NCBI RefSeq assembly: GCF_032854445.1
Contig: NC_088295.1
Coordinates: forward strand, 10,403,385-10,467,384
Direction: 5' to 3'
Source: Liolophura sinensis
Taxonomy: Eukaryota > Mollusca > Polyplacophora > Chitonida > Chitonidae
DNA: 64,000 nucleotides
Shown here: positions 40,959 through 61,900 of the stretch, piece by piece
How positions within the stretch are numbered: position 1 is the first letter of the stretch
Layout of the letters: every line of letters starts with the position of its first letter
Translations under genes and position numbers: made by a program
Notes under the pieces: generated by a model
Database searches by the model: none
The model's input: the letters and a program-made list of their open reading frames with translations, nothing else
What the model was told of the DNA's origin: nothing

Positions 40959-43900
40959 GTAATATACGTTTACTTACATTTAGTTCGAATTCAGTTTTAT
41001 GTTTATTTTACTTATGTTTTTCTTGACAACTGTGATAAACGTACAAACATCTTCCAGACATTGTCACTGAATGTGCCTTGGGGGCCTAGATAGTACAGGC
41101 ACTTTAAAAAACTCCGTTGGTATCCGTTGGTAAGAACATGGCGCGGCTTTCAAACTCAGACCTATTTTGCACTTACATCCATAGAACAGTCTTCTGTAGC
41201 TCTGGGCTGGTATTTATCAAGCAGCTGAAGACTTAAAGTGATAGACAGCACCTGATTAATGTTTGTGCCCACTGGAAGACTACCATTCAAAAGTGTCTTA
41301 AACTGGCATTAAATATTTTTTAGAATTTTTTTCAACTCAGTGAAACTTGAGTGAGACTTCATCTTGACACAGCCTCAGCAGGTCCCCATTAGAGAAAGCA
41401 AAGTTATGTCACTTTACTCTAGCTCTTTGAGTCTAATCAGTAGTCTGTAGTGGATAAAAGTTTGTGGCAATGAGGGCCCTGTGTGATAAATATAGTTTTC
41501 TCAGAAAGTGGACATACTGGAAGAATGTTTCTTCCACTGCTGGCACGGTTGATGCAGAAAGCCTACTATATCATTTCCAGGGAACTACAGCAACCCTGTT
41601 TAAATAACCTGTTCAAATAACCTTTGACCTTTTGCAGATGCACGGCCCGGGTACTCCTGGCTTAGGTTGTAGCCTCAGGAGAGGTTGTGCTGGTGATTTT
41701 GACCCCTATTAAATGTTTACAAAATTACAATAGGATTGGTGTACAACTAGATTCATGCTCAATTCTGAAACAGATGAAAATAAATGTAAGCACCACTGAG
41801 GCTGATCTAAGCAATCAACTGTCGCTAAATTTTATGCTTCAGTTTTATTGCAGTGGCTTCTAAGGTGAAAGCAGTGCTGACCTAGTTACCGTACACATCA
41901 GAGAAAGCACCTTGGCTGGAACATGGCATTTCAATAATATTTCTGTATTTTTTAAAAGAAAATAGTGCTTTAATCAATCAAATCTGCATAATTCGATATA
42001 AATACTGTTTTTTGTAGCAATCCCTGATTCTGCTGATGAGAGGTTTTCAACATGTTCATTGTGTCATCAGATAGTGGACAAAACATCCTCTACTATACTC
42101 AAGTCAAATGGACGGGTATGTGTTCATAGAAATTATATATTCCTGTGTAATCGTTGACAGCCAGTCAAAACACTGATATAAACATTCACATATACACACA
42201 GGTTCTGTTTCTTAGCTATAGTTGAGAGGTGACTTTCTGTGTGCTCACATTTTTTAAGGTCATGTCTTATGAAAAAAATATTATACAAATTCTTTGAAAA
42301 AAATATGATATGCTGTACATGTGTGACAGCTACGGTGTTGATTAGATGGAGAGGGTAGATCTGAAGTAGAATACACACTTCCGGTTTTGTGGTTATCTGT
42401 TTTTCTTGCTTATAGGAAGAAGTAGGTGTTCAAGCTATGGTACAATTCTGCCAGTTATTGACAAGGCCTTCAGAATTGCAGTCTTGTTCTGAGTTTGTGG
42501 AAAATTTTGGGCTGACAGTGGTAGATTATGTTCTGTCAGGACAGGCAAGTACACGTATATAAATGATAATGACATAGAATCTTTAAAAATACAAAGTAAA
42601 CTGTTTATTGAAATTGTCATGGCGATGTTGAGGATGACCAACTAAATATATAGCAAATATAATAAAATTATATTAAGATAATGATAGAGTAAATATAAAA
42701 TCATATCCTACATGTAGTTTGCATATATTCCAGCTGTGAACTTGTAGCTGTGTTAACATTTTATTGATTGAGGTACTTTTGTTATACACAGGGAACTAAA
42801 CAAGTCTGTGCTAATATTCAAGCCTGCTATGCTGAAAACTTTGTCGCAGAACCACATGTCATAAATGAGGTTGGCATTGAATCAGAGATGCAGCAAAACC
42901 TTCCAGAGACGCAGCAAAATCTCTCAGAGACAGGTGGCTTCAAGGTAGGGGGGGGTTCATTCAATGAGGTTTATCCCTCTTTGATTGTTAAGTGTGATGG
43001 CTGACAATAGTTTGTTCAGTTTTATTATTATGGCATATACTGATAAAAATGCTGAACATGGCGCTCATTTATCACGTAAATATATCTTCAGTGGTGTAGA
43101 CGATGAATTCAACACAAATGGCTGTTGGGATCTTGTATGCTGATATCTGGCTTTAATATACCATCATTCATAACCATACATAGATAGTTTTCTGTACTAT
43201 CACACAAAGATGGGTCAGAATGTTCACCCTGGCATACAGGCTGGTAATCAGTTGCAATTAGTTGTGCTCAGTTGTTACCAGATGTTATCGGTAGTTATCA
43301 GTAGTTATCAGGTCCAAGCTGGAGTGAAAACAAACCTTGGATTACCTTACTATTTATGAAGTATCAGACAATACGCAAATTTACGGTAATTTACCAAAAT
43401 CAAAGTTTTATATCAGGAAGCATTTTTCCACGTAATTCTGCTACATATGCACTAAACACTACTCTTATTTCTTAAACAACAAACTACAGATACAGTATAG
43501 AACATAAAACAATGAAAAAGTACATATTTATTCACATTCCTGCTGCTTAACATAAACATTATGTTGTTGTTATTACATCCAATATGCCACATGTACTCAT
43601 AAACTCAAAAAAGTCCACAAAAGTCCACTTCACACCTACATCAGGTAATTAACTTCACAGTTCTTCTGACAAGTATTGCTTTACAACACGACATCACTGA
43701 TGCTACTTTATTCAGTTACATCGCCTCAACAAATTCAAAGACTCATGAAGTAAACTTGTCCGAACTACATGTCAACGATTATTTTTTGCCTCTCTCCCGT
43801 TGCATTCAAAACCTTAACTGTCTATTACCAAAAATGCGGAGCGGGACTATCCGCCATCAACAAATGGGAAATTGATATGATACTGCACATTTTTCACAAT

Positions 43901-46900
43901 CTAGGTGATTTTCAAGTTCAGTTATTTTTATATCCTCCTCCAACATTGGAAAGAGATCTATTCTCTGATCTACAGATCAGCAACAGTTGGTTTGGCATGA
44001 TGTACCCATTGCGTCAGATTGACAACGACTTTCAGCTGTGTAACTGTTTTGATCAGCTAAACACATGTATCCTTTAAAGTGTCCCATTATTATTTCAGGC
44101 TGATGCCCGCTGTGAGCTGTGCAATTGTTTTGATCAGATAACATGTTTCCTGTGAAGTATTGCTTAATTGTTTTAGGCTGGCACCCACTCTCAGCTTTTT
44201 TTGATCAGCTAATACATGTACATGAGTCCTGTGAAGTATCCGTTATTTAAATATACCTTGTAACACGTAATTGTTTCAGGCTGATGCCCGCTGTGAGCTG
44301 TGCAAGTTTTTTGTCCAGCTTCTAGACAGTAGCCTGGCTGAGGAGAAGACCCTGGCTACCATCAATGGCACCCTCATGGCCATATGCAACTCCCTCACTC
44401 AGCCTCTTCTCAAGTCTGTTGTAAGAAACAAATTATCGCATGTATTATTGTTGTCAGTGAAAAACATATTGGTGCTTGAAAATTTTTGAAATACCTGTCT
44501 GCCCAGGTAATTCTTTGACCTTCAGTCACCACTGCAAAAAATATTTTGAATTATTCTCTGAGAACTATGGGGCGTAGAGAAATAATTTGCACAGTTTTAT
44601 GAATCTTACATCTTGAAAAGTGAAACAACTAAGTCATTTTTCACATCATTTTCATAATAATTGTATGCATAAATTCCACTGAAAAAACTGCTTTAGAGGT
44701 CAAAAAGGTTGAAGATTTACAGTAACACCAAATCTTACTTTCTAAACAGTGATGTTTATATTATAAAACATATTACATAGCCTTTTTTGCGTCACAGTCA
44801 TGACAATGGTTTATGTTCTACATTCTTGGCATTTCATTTATTGCTATTTACAGGTAGATAATTCCATTGCTTCAAAACCTATCGATTTTTATTGTATAAT
44901 TTTGTTTAGATGTTATTTACTGATTATTTCTTGTTGGTAGTGTCTTGCCCTGGACTCACAAGTGATTACACTTTTTGAACAAGGCCTGGATCCCTCAACG
45001 TCTTGTCAGAAGACTAATTTTTGTCCAGGTAAGTATAAAACATACATATAACAAGATTTTCAAACTTTTTATTAAGGATGCTATATGAGAGACTTTGGAC
45101 AAAAAATTCATATTTGCCAATCAATTCGAATTTTTCTTCACTCAGCAAGAATAGCTCAAATCATTGCTTTTCAGTAATTATCAAACTTAAAAAATAATCA
45201 AATTTTTAAAGCAACCATCATTGAATATAAATTTTAGGAACTTTATAATTCATTTTGAACAGTAACAGGGGCAAAAACAAGGCTGATAGTTTGTGAAAGG
45301 TAAGACTGATGTCCACATTCTTTTGCAGCATCCATTCCGGCAGATATCAATGTCTCTGGCATAGAGGGTTTAACATGTGATATGTGTAATATCCTGATTG
45401 AAGACATTGCCATACATGCAAATGTCATGTCAGAGGTGAGTGGATGGAGTGTAGCTGAATGCCACACATGCAAATGTCATGTCAGAGGTGAATGGATGGA
45501 GTGTAGCTGAATGCCACACATGCAAATGTCATGTCAGAGGTGAATGGATGGAGTGTAGTTGAATGCCATGGATGCAAATGTCATGTCAGAGGTGAGTGGA
45601 TGGAGTGTAGCTGAATGCCATGGATGCAAATGTTATGTCAGAGGTGAGTGGATGGAGTGTAGCTGAATGCCATGGATGCAAATGTCATGTCAGAGGTGAG
45701 TGGATGGAGTGTAGCTGAATGCCACACATGCAAATGTCATGTCAGAGGTGAATGGATGGAGTGTAGTTGAATTCCATGGATGCAAATGTCATGTCAGAGG
45801 TGAGTGGATGGAGTGTAGCTGAATGCCATGGATGCAAATGTTATGTCAGAGGTGAGTGGATGGAGTGTAGCTGAATGCCATGGATGCAAATGTCATGTCA
45901 GAGGTGAGTGGATGGAGTGTAGCTGAATGCCACACATGCAAATGTCATGTCAGAGGTGAATGGATGGAGTGTAGTTGAATGCCATGGATGCAAATGTCAT
46001 GTCAGAGGTGAGTGGATGGAGTGTAGCTGAATGCCATGGATGCAAATGTTATGTCAGAGGTGAGTGGATGGAGTGTAGCTGAATGCCATGGATGCAAATG
46101 TCATGTCAGAGGTGAGTGGATGGAGTGTAGCTGAATGCCATGGATGCAAATGTCATTTCAGAGGTGAGTGGATGGAGTGTAGCTGAATGTCATGGATGCA
46201 AATGTCATGTCAGAGTAGACCACACATGCAAATGTCATGTCAGAAGTGAGTGGATGGAGTGTAGCTGAATGCCATGGATGCAAATGTCATGTCAGAGGTG
46301 AGTGGATGGAGTGTAGCTGAATGCTATGGATGCAGATTTCATGCCAGAGGTGAATGGATGGAGTGTAGCTGAATGCCACACATGCAGATTTCATGTCAGA
46401 GGTGAGTGGATGGAGTGTAGTTGAATGCCATTGATGCAAATGTCATGTCAGATGTGCGTGGATGGAGTGTAGCTGATTGCCATGGATGCAAATGTCATGT
46501 CAGAGGTGAGTGGATGGAGTGTAGCTGAATGCCACACATGCAAATGTCATGTCAGAGGTGAGTGGATGGAGTGTAGCTGAATGCCATGGATGCAGATGTC
46601 ATGTCAGAGGTGAGTGGATGGAGTGTAGCTGAATGCCATTGATGCAAATGTCATGTCAGAGGTGAGTGGATGGAGTGTAGCTGAATGCCATGGATGCAGA
46701 TGTCATGTCAGAGGTGAGTTTATGGAGTGTAGCTGAATGCCATGGATGCAGATGTCATGTCAGAGGTGAGTGGATGGAGTGTAGCTGAATGCCATGGATG
46801 CAGATGTCATGTCAGAGGTGAGTGGATGGAGTGTAGCTGAATGCCATGGATGCAAATGTCATGTCAGAGGTGAGTGGATGGAGTGTAGCTGAATGCCATG

Positions 46901-49900
46901 GATGCAAATGCCATGTCAGAGGTGAGTGGATGGAGTGTAGCTGAATGCCACACATGCAGATGTCATGTCAGAGGTGAGTGGATGGAGTGTAGCTGATTGC
47001 CATGGATGCAGATGTCATGTCAGAGGTGAGTGGATGGAGTGTAGCTGAATGCCACACATGCAAATGTCATGTCAGAGGTGAGTGGATGGAGTGTAGCTGA
47101 ATGCCATGGATGCAGATTTCATGCCAGAGGTGAATGGATGGAGTGTAGCTGAATGCCACACATGCAGATTTCATGTCAGAGGTGAGTGGATGGAGTGTAG
47201 TTGAATGCCATGGATGCAAATGTCATGTCAGATGTGCGTGGATGGAGTGTAGCTGAATGCCATGGATGCAAATGTCATGTCAGATGTGCGTGGATGGAGT
47301 GTAGCTGAATGCCATTGATGCAGATGTCATGTCAGAGGTGAGTGGATGGAGTGTAGCTGAATGCCATGGATGCAAATGTCATGTCAGAGGTGAGTGTTGT
47401 GGCTTACTGTGTCATGTAAGTGTGGAATGTGTTTTGTTATGAAGTCCTTTTGAATATTTATGTTGTTTTGGACCTAATGACACTTTGTTTTCTTTTAACA
47501 GGAATTGTCCGAGTTTTGCTTAGCTTTTCAGGTGTGTGACAGTGGTACTGGACAAATGGCAGCTGACACATTTAATACCTTCCATCACAATCCTGGGGTA
47601 TGCGAGCTCAGTATTTAGTAACAATATATATATTTGCATATGCATGTATGTGATAGTTTTGGCATAATATGTGAGGCTACAACAGGTAATCATATTTTAA
47701 GTGCAAGTTTCATTGCCTTCGTGAATGGGGATGTATGTGGAGCCCATTATACACGGGAGCCTGATTCTAAGTGATTGAGTATGCAAAATAATGATGCAAC
47801 TCAACTCAAGTTGCATGCTAGTTGTTACGTGTATGGCAGTTTCATCCAGAGTCATATGTACCTACAACTGGGACAAACTCCACACAACCAGTCGAACTGA
47901 GTTGTGTCTCTTGTGTGTGCTGAGATTTAAACTCAAATTAACCTATATATGTACACACGTGTGGATCTGTCTGTGTTATATGGACATATCTCCCAGACCA
48001 TGGTGTACAGTAGATGTATCATGTTTCTTTGTCTCTGAAGGACTCGCTGGGCTGTGAAATCTGTGAGTTCCTCATCAACATGTTGGACCAGTACATAGCA
48101 AACAACAAGAGTGAAGCTGCCATTAATGCCACCGTCTTCAAGCTGTGCAATGATTTACCTGCAACATTCCAGCCAGTGGTGCGTTGACATTTCATGTTAT
48201 CATACCTGATGGAGTGATTCTTGGATATATGGTGTATAGTATGTTTACATGCCTGTGTATGTGTATCAGATTATCAAACATTGTGTATGAACTGAAATTA
48301 AGGAGAGAGTAAATTTGCAATGTGTACTTCATCAAGAGAGTAAACTTACTATGTGTGCTTCATCAAAAAATGTAAAATTTTTAAAATTATGATGAAATTA
48401 GCTATTAGTAATGTCAAGAATGTAGTAGTGGATGAAGTCACATGTCTGTTTCTTTATTCAAACCCTCAACTGTCAATACCTTTGCAAATTCAATCCCCTT
48501 CCTCCGACTTCAAGTGGCTATGTTGAAGTTACACTCTCTCCTGTAGATGCTGCTGTAGCTATACATCTCCGTGAAGAAGTTGCAGAAACACAATAAGATT
48601 TGGGAACTAGTTATCCATGTACATATACTAGCCTGCAACTGAATGTGGAACAGCGATGTTGTTGTTGTCCAGGAGAGGATGTATGATGTGTGTGTCGTGT
48701 AATAGCTGGAGTTGCCTGTCTATTTGGATGTGGGACTAGAATGTTGTTCTTGTTGTCCATTGTATAGTGCAGTTCAGGAGAGGGTGTATATGTGTGTGTC
48801 CTGTAATTGCTGGAGTTATCTGTCTAACTGGATGTAGGACTAGAATGTTGTTCTTGTTGTCCATTGTATAGTGCAGTTCAGGAGAGGGTGTATATGTGTG
48901 TGTCCTGTAATAGCTGGAGTTATCTGTCTACCTGGATGTGAGACTACAATGTTGTTCTTGTTGTCCATTGTATAGTGCAGTTCAGGAGAGGGTGTATATG
49001 TATGTGTCCTGTAATTGCTGGGGTTATCTGTCTACCTAGATGTGGGACTAGAATGTTGTTCTTGTTTTCCATTGTATAGTGCAGTTCAGAAGAGGGTGTA
49101 TATGTGTGTGTCCTGTAATAGCTGGAGTTATCTGTCTACCTGGATGTGGGACTAGAATGTTGTTCTTGTTGTCCATTGCATAGTGCAGTTCAGGAGAGGG
49201 TGTATATGTGTGTGTCCTGTATTAGCTGGAGTTATCTGTCTACCTGGATGTGGGACTAGAATGTTGTTCTTGTTGTCCATTGTATAGTGCAGTTCAAGAG
49301 AGGGTGTATATGTATGTGTCCTGTAATTGCTGGGGCTATCTGTCTACCTAGATGTGGGACTAGAATGTTGTTCTTGTTGTGCATTGTATAGTGCAGTTCA
49401 GGAGAGGGTGTATATGTGTGTGTCCTGTAATAGCTGGAGTTATCTGTCTACCTGGATGTGGGACTAGAATGTTGTTCTTGTTGTCCATTGTATAGTGCAG
49501 TTCAGGAGAGGGTGTATATGTATGTGTCCTGTAATTGCTGGGGTTATCTGTCTACCTAGATGTGGGACTAGAATGTTGTTCTTGTTGTCCATTGTATAGT
49601 GCAGTTCAGGAGAGGGTGTATATGTGTGTGTCCTGTAATTGCTGGGGTTATCTGTCTACCTGGATGTGGGACTAGAATGTTGTTCTTGTTGTCCATTGTA
49701 TAGTGCAGTTCAGGAGAGGATGTATATGTATGTGTCCTGTAATAGCTGGAGTTATCTGTCTACCTGGATGTGGGACTAGAATGTTGTTCTTGTTGTCCAT
49801 TGTATAGTGCAGTTCAGGAGAGGGTGTATATGTATGTGTCCTGTAATAGCTGGAGTTATCTGTCTACCTGGATGTGGGACTAGAATGTTGTTTTTTGTCC

Positions 49901-52900
49901 ATTGTATAGTGCAATTCAGGAGAGGGTGTATATGTGTGTGTCCTGTAATAGCTGGAGTTATCTGTCTACCTGGATGTGAGACTAGAATGTTGTTCTTGTT
50001 GTCCATTGTATAGTGCAGTTTAGGAGAGGGTGTATATGTATGTGTCCTGTAATAGCTGGAGTTATCTACCTGGATGTGGGACTAGAATGTTGTTCTTGTT
50101 GTCCATTGTATAGTGCAGTTCAAGAGAGGGTGTATATGTATGTGTCCTGTAATAGCTGGGGCTATCTGTCTACCTGGATGTGGGACTAGAATGTTGTTCT
50201 TGTCCATTGTATAGTGCAATTCAGGAGAGGGTGTATATGTATGTGTCCTGTAATAGCTGGAGTTATCTGTCTACCTGGATGTGAGACTAGAATGTTGTTC
50301 TTGTTGTCCATTGTATAGTGCAGTTTAGGAGAGGGTGTATATGTATGTGTCCTGTAATAGCTGGAGTTATCTGTCTACCTGGATGTGGGACTAGAATGTT
50401 GTTCTTGTTGTCCATTGTATAGTGCAGTTCAAGAGAGGGTGTATATGTATGTGTCCTGTAATTGCTGGGGCTATCTGTCTACCTAGATGTGGGACTAGAA
50501 TGTTGTTCTTGTTGTGCATTGTATAGTGCAGTTCAGGAGAGGGTGTATATGTGTGTGTCCTGTAATAGCTGGAGTTATCTGTCTACCTGGATGTGGGACT
50601 AGAATGTTGTTCTTGTTGTCCATTGTATAGTGCAGTTCAAGAGAGGGTGTATATGTATGTGTCCTGTAATAGCTGGGGTTATCTGTCTACCTAGATGTGG
50701 GACTAGAATGTTGTTCTTGTTGTCCATTGTATAGTGCAGTTCAGGAGAGGATGTATATGTGTATGTCCTGTAATTGCTGGAGTTATCTGTCTACCTGGAT
50801 GTGGGACTAGAATGTTGTTCTTGTTGTCCATTGTATAGTGCAGTTCAGGAGAGGGTGTATATGTGTGTGTCCTGTAATAGCTGGAGTTATCTGTCTACCT
50901 GGATGTGGGACTAGAATGTTGTTCTTGTTGTCCATTGTATAGTGCAGTTCAGGAGAGGGTGTATATGTGTGTGTCCTGTAATAGCTGGAGTTATCTGTCT
51001 ACCTGGATGTGGGACTAGAATGTTGTTCTTGTCCATTGTATAGTGCAGTTCAGGAGAGGGTGTATATGTGTGTGTCCTGTAATAGCTGGAGTTATCTGTC
51101 TACCTGGATGTGGGACTAGAATGTTGTTCTTGTTGTCCATTGTATAGTGCAGTTCAAGAGAGGGTGTATATGTGTGTGTCCTGTAATAGCTGGAGTTATC
51201 TGTCTACCTGGATGTGAGACTACAATGTTGTTCTTGTTGTCCATTGTATAGTGCATTTCAAGAGAGGGTGTATATGTGTGTGTCCTGTAATAGCTGGAGT
51301 TATCTGTCTACCTGGATGTGGGACTAGAATGTTGTTCTTGTTGTCCATGGTATAGTGCATTTCAAGAGAGGGTGTATATGTGTGTGTCCTGTAATAGCTG
51401 GAGTTATCTGTCTACCTGGATGTGGGACTAGAATGTTGTTCTTGTTGTCCATTGTATAGTGCATTTCAAGAGAGGGTGTATATGTGTGTGCCCTGTAATA
51501 GCTGGAGTTATCTGTCTACCTGGATGTGGGACTACAATGTTGTTCTTGTTGTCCATTGTATAGTGCAGTTCAAGAGAGTGTATATGTGTGTGTCCTGTAA
51601 TAGCTGGAGTTATCTGTCTACCTAGATGTGGAACTACAATGTTGTTCTTGTCTGTTGTAGTGTTTCAGTCTTGCTCCAGCTGTAGTCTCTGCTTTGGCCC
51701 GAGGCTTGGACCCTGCCACAGCGTGTACTGATATCAAACTATGTACAGGTCAGATGCAACAATGTTATAAAGCCAAAGGTTACCATGTCAATGTGCTCTC
51801 TCTTATCTCAATACAGTTGTATGTTGACCTTTATCAGTATAGTGAAGTAGGCCTATACTATTCATGTTTTTGCTATGCAGTAGCTAGGACTGTCTATTAC
51901 TTTTAATGAAATTGTCCCATAAAACTTCTCTGTTTATTTAAATGACTATGATAGTAACTTTAATGCACCTGTATTGCTGTTGAAAAAGAAAGTAATAACT
52001 TCTACATATCAAACAAAAATCTCTGTAATTAAATTAGCGGAACAATTTTCAAGTACTTTTTTCACAAAATTTATTTCCATTTTATTTCATTGGATATATT
52101 TTGCGCGCTGCCAGGCCAGTCAGAACTGAACCAGCTGATTCCTCAAACTCGGCCACAGCATGATGAAATTGAGGTAAGGCTGCTACATGTAACTCGTCTG
52201 CACAAAACACATGTACAAGTGTAGCTTACATCACACCCCATGCGTGTATGCATCAGGTAACAGGGAGAGCAGTGTTAAGTAAATATTGGGGTGCTACTAC
52301 ATGCATTGAGCTCAGGTTTTGCATGCATGTAGAGCATAAGGACACAAGGGGGATGTTCCTTTGTTGATGCAGTGTGTACATATGAAGTACAGTAACATAC
52401 AAAATTCATGACAGTGTATTGTCTGTTAGAATCCATGTCATGACAGTGTATTGTCTGTTAGAATCCATGTCATGACAGTGTATTGTCTGTTAGAATCCAT
52501 GTCATGACAGTGTATTGTCTGTTAGAATCAATGTCATGACATTGTATTTTATCCTGAAAATCTGGTCATCATATATCAAGAAAATAACCATTTACTTCCT
52601 TTCCATTGTTTATTTTGGATAAACATTGTCTTTTCTTCATTCAGGCTTCTTTGGGCTGTGAGATTTGTGAGTTTCTCATTGACACAGCTGACCAGTATTT
52701 ACAGAACAACAAGAGTGAGGCAGCCATCAATGCAACCCTCTACAAGCTGTGCAATGATCTGCCAGATACATTTCAGTCCTTCGTAAGTCTGCAGTTGTCA
52801 ATCTGAGGATTAAATCTGAGTGTTAAATATGTAGCCCTTGATAAAGCATGCTTCTGGCAGCAGGCAATGGTTGTGACAGATAATGCCACAGTATGGAGGG

Positions 52901-55900
52901 AGGTGCGCACAGTATCTGGCAAAGGAGCTTACTCCACGCTCTCCAGTTTCCTCCACCCTGAAATCTGATCCTCTGATCCTTCAACATCCTCTGTAATCAG
53001 TATGTTGAAACATTCTGAGAGACCTGTGGAGTGCAGAGAAATAATTTGCATAGTTTTATGAAGCATACATCTTTACTGACAAATCATTTTTAGCATCATT
53101 TTTCTAATACTTGCGTGCATAACTTCCACTGAAAAAGTGCTTTGGTGGTGGAAAAGGTTGAGGATTTACAGTAAGTTCCAATCAAAATCATCGTACTCAG
53201 CAAAGACATTTTCTTTTTAAGTACAATATCAATACTATATATACAGTGTACACTGTCACAGTTTTCTACAATTATGCACCTTCCATTATAGATTTTCCTT
53301 TAATAAATGGACAGGCAAGGAAAAAAAAAATAGTTCATTTTGAATCTGAAAGCTAGGGTATTTCGAATTCCAAACATGGCAGAAATCTCAATAATTATGT
53401 TGGATATTTTATATTTCTAGTGTTTTTCCTACGCACCAATGATAGTAAGCCTTCTGTCAAAGGGCTTTGACCCACAGAAAGTCTGTACAGAAATCAAGCT
53501 GTGCACAGGTATGTTTATGTTTATGCCAAATTTATTTTTAACTGTTACATGGAGTGTCAGTTTGAAGAAAACCAACAGTGAGAATCACAACATTCCAAAT
53601 AATTATACCAGTTGAAAGCATCTCATTACGCGTACAGTGTGCCCTGCTGTGATAAAAAAACTTGGTTTACAAGTAATCTCAGGTAACTAGTTTGTTAAAG
53701 GCCTGTGGGCTTGTTGAGTCATAATGGAATTTGTGGGAGAAGTGAACTCCAAATTTGGCATCATGAACTGCCGTAGTGCAGCCTTTATTGTTTGTTCACC
53801 TTCAGCAATATGTTAGCCCCTTATCTCCTGAATGGCTGATGGGTTGATTGCATAATATATCTCTTAATTTATAGCATTCACTTAACCTCTCAGGGGGATG
53901 TAGTTATTTGTTTCAATGTTGCGTTGTAAACAGGAAGTGACGAATCAGCTGAGCACACCGTAAGTCCAGAGCATCAAAGCCAAAAAGATCATGATCAGGT
54001 GAGTAGTTGTCTCCCTTTACTGGTAACAGGTTGTAAGACATGCAGATTATATCTTACATTTATATATGTATATATGTTATATTTGTTTGTTTCTTTTATT
54101 CACATTGGGGCTTGTTTCATACTGGATTATTTTAATTCAACTCATGACTCACAGTTAATAAAATTACTGCTGTAACAACCTTCAAGTTTTCATGTACTAC
54201 TCATCGTCATTTTTTACAGATCTCCTTGGGCTGTGAGATTTGTGAGTTTCTCATTGACACAGCTGACCAGTATTTACAGAACAACAAGAGTGAGGCAGCC
54301 ATCAATGCAACCCTCTACAAGCTGTGCAATGATCTGCCCTCAACATTTCAGCCACTGGTAAGACCAGCCTTCACTGTCATTGTGGTTGGAATGTCAGTAT
54401 AAATCAGGGGTTCAAACCTGCACAATGAACCCCGTGTTTTTATCCAGTCTGCAAAAGTTTCCTGTGTCCTGTATCCACTTAACTTTGCACAAATTATATA
54501 TTACCAATTGTCAGATAATATGTAAATATGATGATTGCTGTCATTATTTGTAATTGATTGATTGGAAAGATGTTGATTACATGTATAACTGAATTCATTC
54601 ATTATTGTTTATTCCTCAGTGCATAGCCTATGTTCCTCAGATAGTGGCAGCTCTGGCTCAAGGCTTAGACCCTCAGAAAGTCTGCACAGAAGTCAAGCTC
54701 TGCACAGGTACAGAAAACAATTAACAGTTGTGTTAATCTGCCAACAAAGTTGAAGTCAGTAACATGGCAAGTCATTTCTTCACATTCCATATATCTTATT
54801 TTATACTTTTACATCATTAAATGCTGTTAGTCATTAAATGTTTCAGTCATCAAATGATAGAGTTAACTAACTTTTCTTTTGTTTCAGGCAATAGTACCTC
54901 CAGCAGTCACAGTCACAACAAGCCTCAGGCTACAGCACAGATCAAGGTAGGTTCAGCTTGTACGTCTTAGTAACTAATTAAGTACCGTGGACTTATAAGA
55001 CAAGAAAAGTCTATGTATATCAAGGTGTATCAGTAACCATGTAGCTAAAGTCCAAAAAAACGAGAAAGGACAGGTACATGGTCAACTGGAAACCCTCTTC
55101 AAATTTGACAGAAAACTGTAGGAACTGTTGTGTTTCAGCTCACTTGTTTTGTCTTGTTTATCATCATGTTGATTAATGATCTCATTTGCCCAATCACATC
55201 AGGGCAACTTTGCTGTGATAATTTTATAAGTAGAAATAAGCTTTTCTGTTTGTATTTATCTGAGAATTCTCTAGACAAATTTTAATTGAGCAACTTTGTA
55301 TGGATTGGCTGTTAAACTGAAGACATTGGTATGTTCAGGAGAATCAGTGCCAGACTAAGACACGTATACAATGTATGTTGCTAGGAATCCTAATTGGATA
55401 AAATCTGTTGGTATGGATCCAAACCATCGCATAAACTACGGTATTTCACCGAAAGTTTAGCATTTTTCAAGTGACACAGTCTAATGAATTCATCCACACT
55501 ATAGTGCCATTTAAGGATATTTTATGGATATTCTATCAAACTTTTTAGGTTATTCTGTGTTTTTGATTTGATCAGGCTTCCTTGGGCTGTGAGATTTGTG
55601 AGTTTCTCATTGACACAGCTGACCAGTATTTACAGAACAACAAGAGTGAGGCAGCCATTAATGCAACCCTCTACAAGCTGTGCAATGATCTGCCCTCAAC
55701 ATTTCAGCCACTGGTAAGACCAGCCTTCACTACCACTATGGTTTGGTTTCATTGGTCAGTGGGATAGTCTGCTTAGTGCTTTAAGTTGTTTATGTTTGAG
55801 TTGCTAGGCTATGGATTCAAACGTGGCCTTGGACAGAGAAATTGTTCATTTCCCCTCTCACTGTTTTGGATGCTCAAGACACAGTCTAACGATCATTGAA

Positions 55901-58900: not shown

Positions 58901-61900
58901 CCTCATTCAGGAGTTACGTAAGTGTAGTTTAAAACACCTGTCACTGTATCTGAGCTGAATAATATCCAATTAAGAATGCTAGAAATGAAACTCTTTGATT
59001 TTATGATCAGATGTGATCAGTGTTCTCTTTCATGAAATGAATGACTTCTGGCATTATTTCGAGTATAACATTGATAACATTGATCACATAAATTACCCTA
59101 ATGAAATTGTACACATCATATTTGCATGATTTACTAAGTGTAGTTTACATGTTAATTAAAATACTAATTTTAATAATTCTTATTTAATGCATGTATGTAC
59201 ATGTACTCAGTTAGACACAACTATATGGTGTTTCCTCGAGGCTCTGCCTGGTTTCCTCCGACCATAATGCTGGCCGCCGTCATACAAGCTGGAAGTAAAG
59301 TATTAGTCCCAGATATAAGTGAGACAATCTTGAGTATGGCCTGAAACACCAATCAAATAAATAAATAAATAAATAAATATGATGAGCGACGATAAATATA
59401 AAGAGGAGACCTCCGTGGCTCCGTTGGTTAGCACAGCGTAATGAGCCAGGAGCCTCTCACCAATGTGGTTGCTGTGAGTTCAAGTCCAGCTCATGATGGC
59501 TTCCTTTCTCGTATGTGGGAAGGTCTACCAGCAAGCTGCAGATGGTCGTGGGTTTCCCCGGGCTCTGCCCGGTTTCCTCCTACCATAATGCTGGCGGCTG
59601 TCATATAAGTGAAATATTTTTCAGTATGGCGTAAAACACCAATCAAATAAATAAATAAATAAATATAAAGGGTAAAGTCAGTTGTGAGGATCGAGGTGTT
59701 TTAATACTTTGTGCTAGTTTCACAGGTGTAATGCTATGCCTGGTGTAACTACATGTACATGCACCTTAATGGCAGTGTAGCTACATATAAACATCACTAC
59801 ACTTCATTACAGTGCTATTCCATTGTTCCTAAGCTGGTGACAGTGCTGGTCAATGGAGTGGATCCAGTCAAGGCGTGTGAAGAAATCAAGTTGTGCTCAG
59901 GTAAATTCCCTTTACTTCAGGAATGTGGTCAAGCCATTTTATACTGTCCAACATGTTTTGACGATACCAAAGATCTGGGAAAGATCTCGTTGTGCCGATG
60001 TTATATGATCATATCGAATACACTGATGTTACAACGATGAGAAAGGATAGCCACTACTCTTGTTTTTTTTTTTTTATAACTACCTTCCGTGAACCAAAAT
60101 GTGGAAACCAACTTGCATTGTGATAGTCAGTTCTTGCTGTTTCTCAAGAATTGCGACATAACTTTAAAGAGGCTATACTGGAGATTTGGGGCAAAAAAAT
60201 CGATATTCCCTAATGAAATCAGTTTTTCTATATTACCTATATACCTGGAATAGCTCATTATCACCTTAATATAAAATATGATACATGTACCTGTACCATT
60301 TATAGTGCTACATTAATTGTAAAGTTTGAAAAATGCATTATAAATTTTGTTAACTTTATTACTGATTTTGAATGTTGAGATATGCACAGACAAGGTTGAA
60401 GTTATATAAAATGTAATTATTTTGACTATTCTGAAATAATAGCAAAAATTTGATATGATTTGTGCTTCTCTGTTTTTTGGCCAAAAATCTCTGGTATAGC
60501 CATTTTAGTGCATAAAACTTGTCATTGCAAATTATGACAGTTTCAAGTATATTTACCTGAAGATGATATGTGGGGTCAGTTTAGAGTTGATATGTCTCTG
60601 ATTGTGTGATCATGGGGTCTCCATTCTCTGCTCATTAGGAAACCTTCAAAAAAAAGTTCAGAGGAGGAAAATGTCAAGACGATTGCCTCTAAAACAACAG
60701 GTGGGAAAATCTACTGTAGGGTGTTCTGCATCAAACCAACTCATTGGAGGAATTATGCACTGTAAACATTATTTACTGAACTGCTTAAGCATAAAGATAT
60801 TATAAACTGTCTGTATACTTCTTGTTCAAACTATACAAAAACGATTTTATTCTCCTGATAAGTCATATCATTGCTGATTTGTTGTGATAACTGTGAAGTA
60901 CCTGAAGGTTAGAGGTGTCTCAACCTAGTTGTGCCTCCACAACATGGTGAGACAGGTGATTGATATATTAATGTCAACAAACATACGAAACATTTTTGAC
61001 AAGTTACATTATACAGTAGGACTTATTTTACTGTTCGTTATTGCACCTGTACTTAGCTGTCTGTACTCTACGTTAATTCTATAGCTGATCTTGTCTGTAC
61101 TTATATCCTATAGCTCTCCTCTCCTCTCCTATGTTTTTGCAGGCAGCAAGTCTGGAGTGCGAACTGTGCGAGTTTGTGGTAATGGAGGTTGATACTTACC
61201 TGAAGAACAGAAACTCAACACCTGCAGAAGTAAACAACACTGTCTATCAGCTCTGTCAGGATCTACCCACAACATTCCAGAGTTTTGTGAGTATAATGAC
61301 AAGCAACCAGTATTTAGTTCTCTTTGACATGGGCTCTTTACATGTCTTCCACTAGGCTCTTCCTGAAGACAGTTTAGATGTCTATCCCTTGACCAGTGAG
61401 CTCGCACTTATCAGTCTAGCTTAAATTGTTAGTTTTTGGCCAGGATTAGTAGGTGCCTAATAGGACAGGAATTTTAGCTAATCTGTGGACATTTCTCTCT
61501 CCCCATTAAGCTGACACCTGTTAGTGAAAGAGTTTTGAATATGGCATAAAACACAAGTGGGAAACTCCTAAAACTCTCTCCCACCGGTAACAAAATGATC
61601 TGTACGCTTTTGTTCTTTCCTTTATTAGGTCAGAATAATAGTTATACATGTGGTTGTAAAGGGTATAGAGCACATGTGTATACAAGCACTGCAATGTCAC
61701 AGAAGAAAACAATGTGTTCCTACAATGAGTAGCACCGTCTGCCTCCAGTCCCCCAGTATTGGCAGTTTTTGAAATATGTTCAGTTTTGTTATGATATGCT
61801 CAACACAAAAGCATAGGTTGAGGAATGCTCTTTTGAATTACACTAAATACAGCATGTATTGCATATTAATGTACATGGGTAAAATCAGAAAAGAATGACG

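Follow-up and report, generated by a model that had tools for sequence, protein, structure and literature searches.

How can an exon be spliced correctly when its end, together with its 5' splice site (donor), has been copied dozens of times into the intron that follows? The question is raised by a 64,000-nt stretch of the genome of the chiton Liolophura sinensis (contig NC_088295.1, positions 10,403,385 to 10,467,384, forward strand), referred to here as the window, in which a 52-bp minisatellite straddles the end of exon 7 of a gene predicted to encode a multi-saposin, prosaposin-like protein. We consider it likely that tandem duplication of the exon 7 boundary gave rise to the array, that its first donor is the one used and that the remainder is inert intron. 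Positions are those of the window unless stated otherwise, and a slash within a splice site marks the exon-intron boundary.

A minisatellite across the end of a coding exon

Tandem Repeats Finder (TRF) reports the minisatellite on the forward strand with a period of 52 and 37.7 copies (score 2465). Cutting the array in register resolves it into 39 copies, 37 of them 52 nt long; copy 16 has 30 nt, and the last copy is partial. The array begins inside exon 7, 28 nt ahead of the exon end, and each 52-bp unit joins these 28 nt of exon tail to 24 nt from the donor onward, on the intron side. The unit therefore holds both exon and intron sequence, and the exon's own copy of the tail is identical to the array at 27 of 28 positions. 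A preliminary description of this DNA had given about 38 tandem copies and an exon-derived part of about 20 nt. The array and the presence of the boundary within the unit stand, as does the derivation of part of the unit from the exon, but the figures become 39 copies, 38 of them with GT, and 28 nt.

The remainder of the unit has a less obvious source. A 17-nt spacer within its intron part, GATGGAGTGTAGCTGAA, is found in neither flank; its 29 exact copies in the window all lie inside the array, and a search of the window outside the array gave no exact copy, the best matches carrying 4 mismatches. Unique flank is kept at each end of the array: exon sequence lies to its left, and to its right is intron, where the last copy passes into different sequence after GTGAGTG. 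Given these flanks, the simplest ancestor is a single boundary followed by an intron of about 112 nt.

At the donor place GT is present in 38 of the 39 copies and lost in one. The nine-mer GAG/GTGAGT (GAGGTGAGT) occurs in 28/39 copies, the first and the last included, GAG/GTGAAT (GAGGTGAAT) in 6/39, GAT/GTGCGT (GATGTGCGT) in 3/39 and GAA/GTGAGT (GAAGTGAGT) in 1/39. Splice signals are thus found in many, although not all, units, in agreement with the earlier impression that the donors look usable. For the first donor, as for most of the rest, pairing with the 5' end of U1 is predicted at -11.9 kcal/mol; it is weaker for the second and third (-7.0 kcal/mol). These two donors (45488-45545), the closest competitors of the first, both carry the weaker GTGAAT; by simple, post hoc arithmetic the chance of two weak neighbours ranges from about 0.02 (6 GTGAAT among 38 downstream copies) to 0.08 (11 departures of any kind). 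The RNA fold predicted for the first 221 nt, with four donors, is no more stable than shuffled sequence (z 0.92; stability equalled or exceeded by 167 of 200 shuffles).

Variation between units was computed on 37 of them, copies 16 and 39 being excluded. The nine donor bases show 13 departures from consensus across these units, and 33 of the 52 cyclic nine-base windows, the donor's own included, have as few or fewer. Conservation at the donor nine-mer does not exceed that elsewhere in the unit. Donors kept for use should vary less than their surroundings, so this equal variation gives no sign of selection on the donor. GT is invariant in the 37 units, as are long stretches of the intron part. 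Repeat turnover is visible in a four-unit higher-order pattern in copies 3 to 14, with 10 of 34 pairs identical at a lag of four, and in first and last copies that carry the unique flanks. The lag-4 pattern is what repeated unequal exchange would leave.

Whole-genome searches took in the 609-Mb assembly of 632 contigs. A DNA search with a 151-base query across the boundary matched only this locus, with at least 36 matches in one scored candidate region (the tool warns that its match counts are lower bounds), and a protein search with exons 7 and 8 gave two matches, both here. Neither search found a second haplotype of the array. On contig 8 of the assembly, eight matches to the haemocyanin beta-sandwich family PF14830, each above the curated cut-off, lie in tandem inside 12 kb, and none of 14 control genomes gave such a signal. 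Both this family and an arrangement of eight units are molluscan traits, so the host is very probably a mollusc and not the lancelet from which arrays of this kind got their name.

Reading frame and donor choice

Each of the 38 GT donors was joined in turn to two acceptors, that of exon 8 at 47502 and that of the saposin exon at 48041. With either acceptor, one donor of the 38, the first, leaves the frame open, and all 37 downstream GT donors lead to a truncated reading frame. Joining from the second donor shifts the frame and meets a stop in the next exon, while an exon extended to the third or any later donor runs into a TGA that lies in frame within the second unit. The same TGA truncates even those copies in which the register is restored. 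The preliminary description had already placed a TGA in the second unit, an acceptor at 47502 and truncated products downstream. All three are borne out: the acceptor is present, with a pyrimidine tract upstream, and truncation is stricter than had been proposed.

Exon length points the same way as frame. Exon 7 measures 107 nt to the first donor, inside the range of the 15 modelled exons (59-153 nt), and 159 to 2061 nt to the later ones. Skipping exon 7 altogether changes the frame, since the exon before it ends in phase 1 and those after it begin in phase 0.

In the explanation we favour, a tandem duplication that took in the end of exon 7 together with its 5' splice site would have founded the minisatellite, in a minisatellite-rich mollusc genome, and unequal exchange would then have enlarged and rearranged it. 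At the 5' end of the array the original copy of the exon would have remained intact. Its donor, nearest to the upstream acceptor and earliest transcribed, would make the productive mRNA, and the other copies would sit in the intron and be spliced out. The copying of exon tail and donor, the single open frame among 38, the 107-nt exon, the absence of extra conservation at the donor and the lag-4 pattern support this explanation. Further support may be drawn from a boundary overlap that does not exceed chance, from other exon-end arrays on the contig and from normally spliced precedents in amphioxus, all described below. The straddled boundary, the units and the frames are observed directly; frame, exon length and precedent suggest that the first donor is used and that the rest is inert.

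Several observations weigh against this explanation. The last donor is predicted to pair slightly better with U1 (-12.7 kcal/mol) than the first, and the nine bases of the first are identical in 27 downstream donors. The inferred pre-array intron is short (112 nt), and a short intron could favour the donor beside the acceptor. Downstream repeat units are, moreover, used as donors in human IFI6 (PMC4526556; here and below, statements on published cases refer to the accessible portions of the papers).

Table 1. Features of the array, its host gene and other exon-end arrays on the contig. Coordinates prefixed L009, L018 or L023 belong to further stretches of the same contig.
Feature	Coordinates	Strand	Basis
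52-bp minisatellite, 39 copies in register	45408..47396	+	TRF, register cutting
Coding exon 7, phase 1 to 0, ...GLTCDMCNILIEDIAIHANVMSE; ends ATGTCAGAG/GTGAGT; final 28 nt form copy 1 of the exon-derived unit part	45329..45435	+	splice signals, phase, frame open from preceding exons
First donor GAG/GTGAGT, only one of 38 with open frame	45436..45441	+	
Second donor GTGAAT; joined to 47502 gives frameshift and stop	45488..45493	+	
In-frame TGA in second unit, met by exon extended to third or any later donor	45508..45510	+	
Short copy 16, 30 nt, donor lost	46196..46225	+	register cutting, donor tally
Last donor, followed shortly by unique flank TTGTGGCTTAC; its use leaves a 112-nt intron, up to 47501	47390..47395	+	
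Exon 8, 96 nt, phase 0 to 0, ELSEFCLAFQVCDSGTGQMAADTFNTFHHNPG, ends GGG/GTATGC (weak donor)	47502..47597	+	hand model
Next saposin exon (SapB_1); exon 7 and exon 8 can each be joined to it in frame	48041..48178	+	
146-bp array, starts 24 nt before donor of NUBP-type P-loop ATPase exon	L023:2985-4309		Pfam PF10609, E 1.4e-19
98-bp-unit array after 78-aa open frame, tail and CAG/GTAAG donor repeated	L009:4922-5811	-	tail 34/38 identical
61-bp-unit array, exon-like frame end and CAG/GTAAG donor repeated (less sure)	L018:4822-6868		tail 25/29

Minisatellites of the contig, precedents and alternative explanations

Minisatellites, defined by a period of at least 15 and at least 2.5 copies, were sampled in the window and in 20 further stretches of the same contig (L009-L028, 200 kb). 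They occupy 47,558 of the 200,000 bases in the 20 stretches (about 24%, 93 arrays), to our knowledge an unusually high load, and 7,958 of the 64,000 bases in the window (15 arrays), for 108 arrays overall. When the window's array map was rotated against the 29 modelled exon boundaries, a mean of 3.6 boundaries fell inside arrays, and 44% of rotations gave one boundary or none. The single boundary observed, in one gene and one window, is thus unsurprising, and a preference for seeding on donors is not needed to explain the array.

Four of the 108 arrays, the present one included, begin in an exon, the 61-bp-unit array less surely so; this count was made by eye and is not a complete screen. In the array that follows the NUBP-type exon, the 24-nt exon tail recurs unchanged and the donor nine-mer CAG/GTATGC has 11 exact copies; it is a second boundary-spanning array on the same contig. 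The tail of the 98-bp-unit array scored 56 against a control maximum of 28, and neither its 78-aa open frame nor the frame before the 61-bp-unit array has a Pfam match. True and control maximum scores were 48 and 48 for the NUBP-associated array and 37 and 60 for the 61-bp-unit array; the random control draws could fall inside arrays, and these two cases therefore rest on the visible repetition of the tail. A 56-bp array that also follows a NUBP-type exon (L023:1209-1386) was not counted (tail score 15, control maximum 18). Open frames at array edges number 458. An automatic screen for boundary arrays returned 13 rows, two of which are the present array, and most of the other frames look like chance; none of the six frames (of 13) run against Pfam matched at the cut-off. 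The screen missed the 61-bp-unit and NUBP-associated arrays, both visible by eye.

The preliminary description knew of no comparable case, but the phenomenon has been described before; a 1995 paper reportedly dealt with several donors supplied by the minisatellite of human IFI6. In amphioxus, Adh3 and a pair of globin genes carry 'mirages', tandem repeats across exon-intron boundaries in which many units contain AG/GT; they are unstable in length, and splicing was undisturbed in the Adh3 data and by reverse transcription PCR (RT-PCR) (PMC3087553). Mirages also occur in troponin C and PGBD5 (PMC3902484). They share with the present array boundary-spanning tandem units, splice signals that are intact in many units, turnover of the repeats and concerted evolution, and amphioxus BflGb9 likewise duplicates the 3' boundary of an exon. 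Host and gene differ, the mirages lying in amphioxus Adh3, globins BflGb6 and BflGb9, troponin C and PGBD5 and the present array in a mollusc saposin gene. Dimensions differ as well: two haplotypes of BflGb6 have 6 and 3 units, each 150-160 bp long, against 39 copies of 52 bp here, and Adh3 has units of 10-72 bp. Splicing of the mirages was checked by RT-PCR, whereas the analysis of the present array covered its DNA sequence.

Human IFI6 is alike in that its minisatellite units carry the exon's 5' splice site. There, two downstream units serve as donors and three mRNAs result (PMC4526556), whereas here every downstream donor breaks the frame. Internal tandem repeats at exon-intron boundaries are also described in human segmental duplications and may alter intron structure, but these are recent paralogues with few copies (an average of 4 of 30 bp over all variable repeats) (PMC2812944). 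Among molluscs, an abalone TSSK1-like gene has an intronic minisatellite whose repeat number varies between individuals; it lies inside the intron, and the accessible text mentions no boundary overlap (PMC6905558). A paper on C. elegans minisatellites near alternative exons (PMC4039745) was set aside, its accessible portion not being about donor-bearing units. Titles and abstract openings in the literature searched name no molluscan or saposin boundary array, which is no proof of absence from print.

If a real share of transcripts used downstream donors, met the premature stop and were destroyed, array length would lower the output of saposin precursor, a form of copy-number-tuned unproductive splicing. 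Such a role could be read from the identical nine-mer in 28 of 39 copies, the stop reached from 37 of 37 downstream donors and the employment of downstream repeat donors in IFI6 (PMC4526556). A reporter study in which donor-like GTGAG and GTAAG elements shifted the choice between competing acceptors (PMC1877881) further implies that unused donors need not be neutral. We nevertheless regard this role as improbable: the donor shows no sign of selection within the unit, mirages are reported without splicing disturbance (PMC3087553), and the weakness of the two units adjoining the first donor (GTGAAT, -7.0) would reduce leakage. Some leak into downstream donors, always unproductive, is possible. 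That the array is a working counter, with competition among dozens of identical donors of which the first alone is productive, and with the inherited length setting the productive share of saposin-precursor mRNA, seems to us very unlikely. The array might instead be tolerated because mis-splicing costs little, exons 7 and 8 coding for a decaying saposin domain. Together these exons have no saposin family match in Pfam, whereas the gene's other domains do (four of six test proteins). They make up the third saposin-like domain, which lacks a recognisable last cysteine pair; among the listed frames from exon 8 to 48040 none was convincing as an exon for that pair (47502-48040). The domain may be decaying. 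However, skipping exon 7 would disturb the frame, and downstream donors wreck the whole remaining protein rather than one domain, and we find tolerance on these grounds an unlikely account.

Preferential seeding of this genome's minisatellites at splice donors would offer a more general origin. CAGGT is present in 24 of the 108 units against 10.2 +/- 2.9 in non-array segments (0 of 200 draws as high), and CAGGTA ranks 10th of 2080 hexamers in 94 merged arrays. The merged units, however, have a G+C content of 0.43, against 0.35-0.40 in 28 of 32 two-kb window steps, and many other G+C-rich words rank equal or higher, CAGGT being 17th of 512 and GTAAG 307th. Because array units favour G+C-rich words generally, the CAGGT excess is at least partly base composition. 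A strong donor is found in 6 of the 108 units, the present array included, against 3.3 expected from a mononucleotide shuffle, and boundary overlap in the gene does not rise above the rotation null. Genome-wide seeding is therefore not claimed, and we think it quite unlikely. Finally, long tandem arrays are easily mis-sized, and the copy number in the assembly may be wrong. That the array as such is an assembly artefact is hardly credible, given that unit variants, lost donor and higher-order pattern are all ordered and that the array and both flanks lie inside one 96.4-Mb contig.

The host gene and the significance of the array

The gene model was made by hand and comprises 15 exons between 40886 and 54357 on the forward strand, with further saposin exons beyond. 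Pfam families SapB_1 and/or SapB_2 were found above cut-off in four of six test proteins, and 13 solved chains matched carry the names proactivator polypeptide, prosaposin or saposin. Repeated saposin B domains of a prosaposin-like gene are thus present, and the gene is a saposin gene. The two test proteins with exon 7 but without a later saposin exon gave no SapB_1 or SapB_2 match in Pfam. Exon 8 has an alternative 30-nt version, ending at 47531 with CAG/GTGTGT, that is also in frame. Exon 7 and the exon at 42018-42115 have equal phases and a similar cysteine pair; paralogy of exons 7 and 8 with the first domain was not accepted, as the BLASTP match was not significant (E 0.15) despite the agreeing phases.

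Other features of the window were noted in passing. The third model exon ends CAG/GCAAGT (42544-42545), a probable GC-AG intron. An intron of the same gene, between exons (48178 to 51661), holds a 104-bp array of 28.8 copies (48670-51651); its period is exactly twice 52, and its unit looks unrelated by eye to the 52-bp unit. Three saposin domains in succession have first-half exons (52645-52782, 54220-54357 and approximately 55576-55713) that are near-identical in protein, which points to recent tandem duplication of exon groups inside the gene. Two copies of an apparent dispersed element, with CACCAATCAAATAAATAAA and ending in (AAAT)n, lie at 59220-59380 and 59400-59660. The element is perhaps a short interspersed element (SINE), and a literature search on its tail gave nothing.

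Overall, the array extends to molluscs an oddity known from lancelet and human, with a copy number above that of the globin cases in the accessible published text. With 28 donors of equal nine bases that differ chiefly in position, all in one transcript, the locus is a natural test of donor choice by position, and junction counts there would show how cells tolerate a potentially mRNA-ruining array. It also holds a caution for gene annotators, as coding exons can contain the starts of tandem arrays. If array length did work as a counter, exon-end minisatellites, variable in length, would commonly act as a brake on this mollusc's genes.

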